NCBI RefSeq assembly: GCF_000014065.1
Contig: NC_008044.1
Span: 705,501-769,500 of the forward strand
Length of the DNA stretch: 64,000 nt
Direction of reading: 5' to 3'
DNA from: Ruegeria sp. TM1040
Lineage (GTDB): Bacteria; Pseudomonadota; Alphaproteobacteria; Rhodobacterales; Rhodobacteraceae
Shown: positions 5,192 to 7,677 of the stretch, piece after piece
How positions within the stretch are numbered: the first letter of the stretch is position 1
Layout of the letters: each line of letters begins with the position of its first letter
Translations under genes and position numbers: made by a program
The notes under the pieces: model-generated
Told to the model about the DNA's origin: nothing
Seen by the model: only the letters and a program-made list of their open reading frames with translations
Databases searched by the model: none

Positions 5192-5284
5192 TGGCTATGA
5201 ATCGGTGCGCTTCTGCCGTTTTGTTGCAACTTGGGTGCCAAAGGGGGTTTTCAGTCGCGCTGCCTTCCGTTATGGAGCCGAACT
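5192..5284 (+). promoter_or_regulatory. Upstream region of the argDF leader (promoter expected, not resolved)
   Basis: This 93-bp stretch separates the divergent EamA gene from the 17-codon leader frame and must hold the argDF promoter if the leader model is right. I could not identify a convincing -35/-10 pair. A strong Shine-Dalgarno GGAG (5274-5277) at the right end precedes the leader ATG with a 7-nt spacer. Confidence 0.4.
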
Positions 5285-5338
5285 ATGATCAAACACGCAG
5301 TCCTCCTGTCGACCCGACGTCGACGCCAATGTGCCTGA
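5285..5338 (+). CDS. Putative arginine attenuation leader peptide of argD-argF
   Basis: A 17-codon frame reading MIKHAVLLSTRRRRQCA, ending in TGA. GGAG at 5274-5277 gives an excellent ribosome-binding site with a 7-nt spacer. Codons 11-14 are four consecutive arginine codons (CGA CGT CGA CGC), placed 160 bp ahead of two arginine biosynthesis genes on the same strand. This is the classical architecture of a transcription-attenuation leader peptide: ribosome stalling at Arg codons under low arginyl-tRNA would change downstream RNA folding. The frame, SD and codon run are seen directly; the regulatory role is inferred. I do not recall a described arginine leader of this kind in Rhodobacteraceae, but could not search. 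Confidence 0.7.
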   Translation: MIKHAVLLSTRRRRQCA

Positions 5339-5498
5339 TACGCTGCCCTCGCAGCGCCTTTGATCCCATGCGCCGCCTTGATCTTTCCAAATGGCGCTCC
5401 CTTCAAAACCTACCGGACCTCTTATTGACCGTCGCCCCGTAGTGGGGCACTGATTTGGTCCTGATCCCCGTTCGAACTCTCCATAAAGGATGTTTCAG
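5339..5498 (+). promoter_or_regulatory. argDF leader RNA with mutually exclusive stems
   Basis: Within the leader frame GTCGAC (5308-5313) can pair with GTCGAC (5319-5324) around the first Arg codon. After the stop, CGCTGC (5341-5346) pairs with GCAGCG (5351-5356). AGCGCC (5353-5358) can instead pair with GGCGCT (5393-5398), so these two stems exclude each other. A last GCCCC/GGGGC hairpin (5434-5438 with 5444-5448) precedes a TGATTTGG stretch, which is only a weak U-tract. The AAAGGA ribosome site of argD is at 5485-5490. The pairing is seen in sequence; which stem terminates or antiterminates is not established. Confidence 0.45.
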
Positions 5499-6674
5499 AT
5501 GATCCCCTCCGTTCTTCCGACCTATAACCGGGCGCCCTTGAACTTCGTCAAAGGCGAAGGGTCTTGGCTGATCGAGGCGGATGGACGACGTTTTCTGGAT
5601 CTGGGCTCTGGCATCGCGGTGAACGCGCTGGGCCATGCGCATCCTGCACTGGTGGAGGCGCTGACCGCGCAGGCGCAGAACCTTTGGCATGTCTCCAACC
5701 TCTATGAAATCCCGCAGCAGCAGGCTCTGGCCGACAAGCTGGTGGCGGAGAGTTTTGCGGATACGGTGTTCTTCACCAACTCCGGCACCGAATCCTGCGA
5801 GCTGGCCGTCAAGATGGCGCGCAAGTACCACTATGAAAAAGGCCACCCGGAAAAAGTCGAGATCATTACCTTCGAGGGTTCTTTTCATGGCCGCTCCTCG
5901 GCGGGGATCGCCGCCGCGGGATCTGAGAAAATGACCAAGGGGTTTGGTCCCCTGTTGCCGGGATTCGTACATCTCCCCTGGGGCGATGCGCAGGCGGTTG
6001 CGGCCGCCATCGACGACAAGACCGCAGCCATTCTGGTTGAGCCGGTGCAGGGCGAGGGCGGCATTCGCCCGATGCCCGATCAGGACCTCAAGGATCTCAG
6101 GGCGCTTTGTGACGAACATGGCCTCCTTCTCATTCTCGATGAGGTGCAATGCGGCGTGGGACGCACCGGTAAACTCTTTGCCCATGAATGGGCCGGTATC
6201 GCGCCCGACATCATGATGGTCGCCAAAGGCATCGGAGGCGGTTTTCCTCTCGGCGCCGTCCTCGCGTCCGAAGAGGCCGCCTCGGGTATGACCGCCGGCA
6301 CCCATGGCTCCACCTATGGAGGCAACCCTTTGGGCTGTGCTGTGGGTTGCGCGGTGATGGATCACGTTGCCGCACCGGATTTTCTGTCTGAGGTCAATCG
6401 CAAGGCGGGCCTCCTGCGCCAGAAACTCGAAGGTCTCGTGGCCTCTCACCCGGATGTTTTCGAGGAGGTGCGCGGCTCGGGCCTGATGCTTGGCCTCAAA
6501 TGTAGGGCTGTCAACGCAGAGGTTGTCAAAGCAGGCTACGATGCCGAAGTCATTACCGTGCCCGCCGCCGACAATGTGATCCGCCTCTTGCCCGCACTTA
6601 CCATCACCGACGCCGACATCGAAGAAGCGATCACCCGTCTTGATGCCGCGGCCACTGCGGTCGAAGCCGCCTGA
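5499..6674 (+). CDS. argD: Acetylornithine aminotransferase
   Basis: 391 residues from ATG 5499. The in-frame ATG at 5490 overlaps the AAAGGA Shine-Dalgarno, so 5499 is preferred. It is a class III PLP aminotransferase: [21 protein letters not shown] binds the cofactor phosphate, [20 protein letters not shown] contains the PLP-contacting Asp, and K243 in [15 protein letters not shown] is the Schiff-base lysine. It converts N-acetylglutamate semialdehyde and glutamate to N-acetylornithine in cytoplasmic arginine biosynthesis. The family can also act as succinyl-DAP aminotransferase in lysine synthesis. It is followed after 76 bp by argF in the same direction and preceded by the Arg-codon leader, which supports the arginine assignment. 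Confidence 0.95.
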
Positions 6675-6750: not shown

Positions 6751-7677
6751 ATGAACCATTTCCTCGATATCCATAAAACCGCACCCGAAGATCTGCGTCA
6801 GATCATTGATCAGGCCGGGCAAATGAAAACCGCACGTCTTGGCCGCCCCAAAGGCACGCCAGATGACGAGCAGCCGCTTGCAGGGCATATGGTTGCGCTG
6901 ATCTTTGAAAAGCCCTCGACCCGGACGCGGGTTTCTTTTGATGTCGGGGTGCGCCAGATGGGCGGCGAAACCATGGTGCTCTCCGGCAAGGACATGCAGC
7001 TTGGTCACGGCGAGACCATCGCTGACACCGCGCGGGTGCTGTCGCGCTATGTGGACATGATCATGATCCGGACTTTCGACGAAACCGTGCTTACCGAGAT
7101 GGCAGAATATGCCGATGTGCCGGTGATCAACGGTCTTACCGACCGCACCCACCCCTGTCAGATCATGGCCGATATCCTCACCTATGAAGAACACCGCGGC
7201 CCCATCAAGGGCAAGAAGGTGGTCTGGACCGGGGACGGAAACAATGTTTGCGCGTCTTTTCTCCACGCGGCGGGTCAGTTCGGCTTCGACCTTACCTTTA
7301 CTGGTCCGGCGCAGCTTGACCCGGAAGATGAATTCATCGGGTTTGCGCGCAACGCGGGCTCCAAGATCACTATCGAGCGGGATGCGGCGAAGGCCGTTGA
7401 GGGCGCGGATCTGGTGGTGGCCGACACTTGGGTGTCGATGCATGACAGCCAATCCTCGAAGGAGCGGCGCCACAACATGCTGCGTCCCTATCAGGTCAAC
7501 GACGCGTTGATGGCGCATGCCAAGCCGGACGCGCTCTTTATGCATTGCCTGCCAGCGCACCGCGAGGAAGAGGTGACCTCGGCAGTGATGGATGGCCCCC
7601 AGTCGGTGATTTTTGACGAAGCCGAAAATCGCCTGCACGCGCAAAAGGCGGTCATGCGCTGGTGTCTGGGCGTCTGA
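6751..7677 (+). CDS. argF: Ornithine carbamoyltransferase
   Basis: 308 residues from ATG 6751 ([20 protein letters not shown]). Family motifs are intact: STRTR at residues 56-60 binds carbamoyl phosphate, THPCQ follows near 135, and the ornithine-loop Cys is in FMHCLPAHR near 265. It catalyses carbamoyl phosphate + ornithine to citrulline in the cytoplasm. The length is normal for the anabolic enzyme. It sits 76 bp downstream of argD with a GC hairpin between, so the two are likely one operon under the same leader. Two further hairpins follow the stop. Confidence 0.96.

Follow-up and report, generated by a model that had tools for sequence, protein, structure and literature searches.

Comparison of upstream regions indicates that a short open reading frame (uORF) bearing a run of arginine codons is conserved ahead of argD across much of the family Rhodobacteraceae, and we regard it as probable that this frame belongs to a ribosome-mediated, attenuator-type leader, which tunes the expression of argD and argF to the supply of arginyl-tRNA. 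The frame lies in the window, i.e., the whole 64,000-nt stretch of the Ruegeria sp. TM1040 genome analysed here, to which all coordinates of argD-argF features given below refer (all on the + strand). Positions 5285-5338 read ATG ATC AAA CAC GCA GTC CTC CTG TCG ACC CGA CGT CGA CGC CAA TGT GCC TGA and encode the 17-codon uORF MIKHAVLLSTRRRRQCA, with the start codon ATG at 5285, the Arg codon run CGA CGT CGA CGC at 5315-5326 and the stop codon at 5336-5338. The 17-codon frame with four consecutive Arg codons, two of them CGA, which the original prediction had described, is present exactly there, and the next two genes are, as it had claimed, both for arginine biosynthesis: argD for acetylornithine transaminase (5499-6674; NCBIfam NF002325, E 2e-190) and argF for ornithine carbamoyltransferase (6751-7677; NCBIfam NF001986, E 2.9e-133), each exceeding the cut-off of its model. 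Four of the 749 short ATG ORFs of the window encode RRRR and 193 encode RR; in one sequence alone, four Arg residues in a row are thus uncommon but no proof, and it is the conservation in relatives that raises the frame above chance. A search of the window against Rfam at gathering scores, T-box RNA families included, returned no match.

The close set comprised 97 argD upstream regions, of which 93 are distinct; the genus contributed 17 and named genomes the other 80, the nearest named relatives including Phaeobacter, Pseudophaeobacter, Tritonibacter and Ruegeria. The leaders of three genus members recur in Tritonibacter records, and that of one recurs in the record of Phaeobacter sp. HF9A. 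In an uncontrolled count under a loose rule, which required RR in any codons, an Arg-run uORF was found in 97 of 97 regions. These frames start with ATG, are 10-18 codons long and carry the Arg run near the end; the peptides follow the pattern MIKxAxIxxLRRRR, give or take about three extra residues, and the shortest forms are MTHATRIRRA and MTKLIDIRRDI. Further argD upstream regions were screened under a strict rule, which asked for CGA with an Arg codon directly after it, a length of 7-24 codons and a position from -330 to -60. Of these regions, 136 of 167 were positive; the reverse strand gave 5 of 167, and ten first-order Markov resamplings gave 1-11 of 167. These 167 regions combine 145 from a one-genome-per-genus survey of the other genera of the family, 114 of which had the uORF, with 22 from an order-level search; the close and survey sets overlap, so that 233 leaders correspond to 219 distinct ones. 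Doubtful strict-rule positives exist (e.g., L224, at -322), and by eye L185 (GTG start) and L236 (CGC first) resemble versions of the uORF yet were scored absent. In other alphaproteobacterial families the strict rule was positive in 6 of 57 regions against 3 of 57 on the reverse strand, i.e., at background; this set holds 57 of 81 match rows, from 56 genomes, the remainder being the 21 weakest, two from the own family and G341, at a contig end. The 31 survey regions lacking the uORF all fall among loci L149-L264, and several of these family members (L150, L155, L161, L187, L203 and others) keep a TTGAC before argD.

The uORF is under selection as a frame. Taking as anchors the CGACG motif, which was located in 197 of 264 regions (duplicates included), and an ATG having TA 10-15 nt before it, we found the distance from the ATG to the Arg run to be divisible by three in 176 of 179 cases. 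Across 52 distinct leaders of 17 codons, no variation was seen in the start codon, in the codon that opens the Arg run or in the T of the stop codon, and most residues on either side of the run varied. Pairwise differences amounted to 8318 at third, 7177 at first and 7695 at second codon positions; since third positions vary just slightly more, what is kept is the start, run and stop, and not the rest of the peptide. The run itself is biased toward the rare codon CGA, which opens it in 97 of 97 close regions and accounts for 195 of 352 run codons (55%); among the Arg codons of argD its share is 7.4%. Part of this conservation may be structural, as the run forms one hairpin arm in Ruegeria-type leaders (see below). 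CGA would not be needed in principle either, because in the speF leader arginine sensing worked equally well with frequent and with rare Arg codons, according to the portion of the report available (PMC6386406).

The RNA probably begins at the uORF itself, making the frame leaderless, i.e., translated from the first base. The best -10-like hexamer starts at -14 to -12 in 86 of the 93 distinct close regions, T occupies positions -36, -35 and -34 in 68, 82 and 52 of them, and -1 is a pyrimidine in 91; together these point to transcription starting on, or immediately next to, the A of the ATG. In the window, the putative promoter P1 (5248-5276) consists of a -35-like TTTTCA (5248-5253), a 17-nt spacer and a -10-like TATGGA (5271-5276). 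The original prediction had instead given the uORF an ideal ribosome site, GGAG with a 7-nt spacer. The letters are there (GGAG at 5274-5277, 7 nt before the ATG), but GGAG, AGGA or GAGG precedes argD in 92 of 93 distinct regions (AAAGGA at 5485-5490 in the window) and the uORF in just 8 of 93, and the GGAG overlaps the conserved -10-like region. We thus discarded GGAG as a ribosome site of the uORF and favour the leaderless reading. Where an alignment of argD upstream regions had been proposed as a check, it bore out the start, the Arg run, the frame and the stop but not the Shine-Dalgarno (SD) sequence.

The leader is predicted to be structured, the regulatory codons included. RNA running from the ATG to the TTGAC before argD folded with a mean z of -2.0 (n = 199 leaders), the shorter (45 nt) control stretch before the ATG gave -0.42, and the window leader (5285-5470) reached -4.0; leader L011, folded alone, was no better than its shuffles (z +0.92). 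The fold of 5285-5370 (z -3.57) contains a hairpin just past the uORF stop, CGCUGC-CCUC-GCAGCG (5341-5356), which also emerged from the alignments and whose 5' arm is formed by the Arg codons in Ruegeria-type leaders. Around this hairpin, a 5'-end stem pairs GAUCAAA of the start-codon region (5287-5293) with UUUGAUC (5359-5365), and a third stem, GCGCC ... GGCGC, follows (5370-5397). A second copy of TTGATC, at 5378-5383 and after the first UUUGAUC, could pair with the uORF 5' end instead.

Two alignments built from the 219 distinct leaders, A1 (53 of 89 group sequences) and A2 (35), both of them biased toward the MIK...RRRR type, were inspected for compensatory changes. In A1, 11 of 21 named pairs changed on both sides, a number reached in 0 of 500 shuffles, and sliding the partners reduced the paired cells from 90% to 26-41%; all 6 pairs of the third stem were doubly changed, and this stem accounts for 24 of the 29 doubly changed cells, the 5'-end stem having three. 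Covariation was weaker in A2 (6 of 21 pairs, 1 of 500 shuffles; for paired cells, 10 of 500). The 5'-end stem rests mainly on a test that needs no alignment, in which a complement of at least 6 nt was sought after the uORF: 43 of the 127 distinct 5' ends not beginning with ATGATCAA (34%) had one, compared with a mean of 8% and a maximum of 15% in 500 permutations, which ignore the relatedness of the leaders, and with 5.5% when nt 12-21 of these leaders took the place of the 5' end. Examples are GGTCAAAG with CTTTGACC (L052), TTCAAAC with GTTTGAAC (L114), GATTAAAC with GTTTAATC (L173) and TGACAACG with CGTTGTCA (L095). By this comparison, compensatory changes are shown to support the predicted third stem and 5'-end complement.

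Folds of six leaders and of A1 under constraints yielded no conserved pair of mutually exclusive structures, and constraining them by a stalled, terminating or initiating ribosome produced no consistent switch; a textbook antiterminator is therefore not claimed. We also considered whether the argD ribosome site (GGATGATCC) pairs with the uORF 5' end, as it did in several folds, and rejected this: among the 108 leaders without an ATGATC start, covariation between the two sites was 0.046 as observed and 0.043 after permutation, and the window is without GGATGATCC. TGATC occurs near the argD ribosome site in 65 of 114 leaders with an ATGATC start versus 13 of 105 without, an association that shared ancestry may explain, and between the argD ribosome site and ATG in 0 of 31 uORF-less regions. 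Although spacers usually drift, many relatives show strong conservation of AAAGGATGATCC (A1) in the stretch from the argD ribosome site to the ATG (window 5485-5498), where the window itself has ATGTTTCAG.

A covariance model with an automatic structure of 6 pairs (R1) was replaced by R2, whose structure was named by the author. A model built from other genera matched the window weakly (29 bits, E 0.0024), and had the argD leader as its top match in 16 of 17 argD-bearing genus genomes, with E values for argD leaders of 1e-8 to 0.44; in G016 the argD leader came second, behind a leucine leader. R2 also gave a secondary match in G000, within a long ORF (L345), and the one in G004 looks like the same sequence.

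Downstream of the uORF lies a second promoter-like element, P2 (5425-5453), consisting of TTGAC (5425-5429), a 17-nt spacer and a weak -10, CACTGA (5448-5453), which is probably argD's own promoter. TTGAC stands before argD in 208 of 219 uORF-bearing and 29 of 31 uORF-less regions, where the chance of a given 5-mer is by arithmetic about one in ten; after a 17-nt spacer, A occupies the second -10 position in 119 of 178 uORF-bearing and 20 of 29 uORF-less regions, and the -10 of P2 is poor in uORF-bearing genomes. A transcription start downstream of 5338, which would speak against the original prediction, is thereby suggested in part, by an element that uORF-less regions have as well. P2 is overlapped by the hairpin GCCCCG-UAG-UGGGGC (5434-5448), a weak terminator candidate with a strong stem in 181 of 199 leaders versus 55% of resampled sequences, and with a poor U-tract (the 9-nt tail has 3.2 T on average). 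The transcript that carries the uORF may continue into argD, end at this hairpin, or do both.

The uORF appeared to be specific to argD within the genus. Matches of the argD kind were found ahead of argG in 1 of 17, argJ in 0 of 18, argH in 0 of 17 and argB in 2 of 18 regions, with strands fixed by tblastn and the argG and argH loci L371 and L401 skipped since their upstream parts were too short; the three matches lie in different places and encode unlike peptides, and the reverse strands gave 0. The argS upstream regions had the uORF in 0 of 17, a fragment (L443) being left out. Hence argG, argJ, argH, argB and argS share no uORF of the argD kind in the genus. In the TM1040 genome the pattern ATGN{6,36}CGACGNCGACGN matched 19 times, and only the argD match looked alike when the matched letters were compared by eye. 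Two genus members carry another leaderless-looking leader (L347:1008-1094, +; L348 around 1023-1117, -): the L347 frame, MTMNADILSLDATTRGAALRGLLLLVRL, has Leu codons including CTA; a TATAAA box stands 8 nt ahead of its ATG, a GC hairpin follows the frame, and what looks by eye like the start of leuA lies downstream. At nt 13-21 the frame has GCAGATATC, common to many arginine leaders (GCACATATC). As to repression, a search for ArgR (TIGR01529) gave no match in the TM1040 genome and was positive in 9 of 14 control genomes, which agrees with the suggestion of a control other than an ArgR repressor. ArgR is described as highly conserved in many gammaproteobacterial groups and absent in other classes, in the part of the source available (PMC5343134).

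From these observations we infer control of argDF by charged tRNA-Arg, which could proceed as follows. RNA polymerase would start at or next to the A of the uORF ATG, as the promoter logo suggests, giving a leaderless mRNA, on whose bare 5' end a ribosome would load and translate the CGA-led Arg-run frame. If arginyl-tRNA is short, above all the poor reader of CGA, the ribosome would stall on the run, short of the stop. Its position would decide which structures form among the 5'-end stem, the post-stop hairpin and the later hairpins before argD, and stalling is expected to raise argD-argF expression from the leader transcript through read-through, RNA stability or access, while P2 probably supplies a basal level of argD. 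The start codon may itself be part of the switch, the first ~10 nt pairing with a stretch that in most cases lies 5-45 nt past the uORF stop and so blocking reloading; this extension we hold tentatively and would sooner doubt than assert. If it is true, the 5' end closes once the pioneer ribosome has moved on, and each transcript reads the arginyl-tRNA supply about once. A short RNA would then be a closed small RNA, which may act in trans, and RNA structure would gate initiation at the bare 5' end rather than work as a terminator switch alone.

The attenuator-type leader draws its support from the conservation of the uORF far above the resampled controls (at most 11 of 167), the kept frame and the CGA excess, from the -10-like box, the pyrimidine at -1 and the scarcity of SD motifs that fit a leaderless start, from 5'-end complements, A1 covariation and the z values of the leaders and of the window, and from the arginine-making genes downstream, the missing ArgR match and the precedents of speF and rbfL. 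Against it stand the poor U-tract, the constrained folds lacking an exclusive pair, L011 and the weaker A2 covariation, as well as the weak match of the other-genera model to the window, the other arg genes of the genus without a shared uORF, and P2, which could make the uORF transcript unnecessary for argD. The last point leads to the alternative that a separate small leaderless transcript ends before argD and that P2 alone drives argD-argF, with the RNA or the Arg-rich peptide acting in trans like rnTrpL/peTrpL, for in Sinorhizobium meliloti a leaderless attenuator RNA and its peptide are reported to act in trans (available portions of PMC7298713 and PMC10117765). TTGAC is present with and without the uORF, hairpins precede argD, and a start ~20-27 nt before argD would, by the author's estimate, still include its ribosome site. 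Nevertheless, conservation is poor in the residues from the start to the Arg run, the uORF keeps its place ahead of argD while four other arg genes and argS are without a shared copy, and the -10 of P2 is poor where the uORF is present, so that we judge a trans-acting product with P2 as sole promoter unlikely.

Less readily set aside is a version that dispenses with an intrinsic terminator, in which the uORF ribosome governs the entry of Rho, the decay of the RNA or the accessibility of the argD ribosome site; we think it rather improbable, although it overlaps with the attenuator explanation and the two are compatible. In speF of Salmonella, ribosome pausing on orf34 sets Rho-dependent termination and decay by RNase G; a pause at its two Arg codons, short of the stop, lets a post-stop hairpin form and the mRNA stays stable, with no intrinsic terminator involved (PMC6386406, available part). 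The same logic is possible for the argD leader, given the hairpin at 5341-5356 just past the stop. Leader peptides without obvious terminators are also described for Mycobacterium cys operons (PMC1262725, available part), and in the argD leaders C is the commonest base at -14 to -8 before TTGAC and the U-tracts are poor; on the other hand, the lack of covariation between the 5' end and the argD ribosome site in 108 leaders does not favour the branch concerned with ribosome-site access. Finally, the inverted and CGACG repeats might be DNA operators of an unknown repressor, with the frame incidental. A GCCC-GGGC palindrome does surround the -10 region of P2, but an in-frame distance in 176 of 179 cases, a stop kept after variable lengths and compensatory changes in stem arms would be unexpected for an operator, and we regard such a DNA element as very improbable.

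Set beside known systems, the argD leader works like a leader-peptide attenuator and shows three of six listed features of the class: consecutive Arg codons in a short ORF just upstream of an arginine-biosynthesis operon, selection on that ORF as a frame, and a structured leader that takes in the regulatory codons. It resembles the classical his, trp, leu, thr, ilv and phe attenuators in having a leader peptide with regulatory codons ahead of a biosynthetic operon. The classical attenuators of Proteobacteria have a ribosome site and a clear U-tract terminator, and to our knowledge arginine is not among their amino acids. T-boxes bind tRNA directly, without a uORF. Arg-specific T-boxes sense the state of tRNA-Arg, as mentioned in the available part of PMC1262725. 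Arginine sensing by a leader peptide is not new as such, since orf34 of speF and rbfL are known. In orf34, ribosome pausing at two consecutive Arg codons senses arginine (PMC6386406, available part); it is like the argD uORF in its tandem Arg codons and the regulatory hairpin just past the stop, but it controls ornithine decarboxylase and thus putrescine, has an SD in a ~516-nt leader, belongs to gammaproteobacteria and is not leaderless. The rbfL leader of Staphylococcus aureus likewise senses arginine limitation via rare Arg codons (PMC13009471, available part), but there, under limitation, the ribosome site of a biofilm regulator is covered and its translation thereby repressed, and the leader has an SD and a GUG start. 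Nearest in build is trpL/rnTrpL of S. meliloti, an alphaproteobacterial uORF that is leaderless from its ATG (PMC7298713, PMC10117765, available parts) and has codons for the amino acid made downstream; it differs in sensing Trp and in that its terminator, sRNA and translated peptide have been demonstrated, and the available parts of both reports describe no base pairing between the 5' start region and sequence beyond the uORF. Nearest in lineage is uORFC-8-2 before cysS in Rhodobacterales, with tandem Cys codons and a stem containing them (PMC8632094, available part), i.e., a short uORF with tandem codons in the same order of bacteria; it differs in sensing Cys, in preceding a tRNA-synthetase gene and in a U-run at the 3' end, and the term argD is absent from the main text of that report. 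The open-access literature searched yielded no leader peptide before argD or an arginine-synthesis operon, and arginine synthesis as the target, the leaderless start and the self-pairing start region would be the new part.

If the attenuator-type leader is genuine, the argD leader would be an arginine-sensing leader peptide for arginine synthesis itself, and would suggest ArgR-free regulation of argD-argF in a large family of marine and soil bacteria. The fixed CGA would tie a poorly decoded codon to the sensing of starvation, and the pairing of the start region makes the gating of leaderless mRNAs by their own 5' ends testable.
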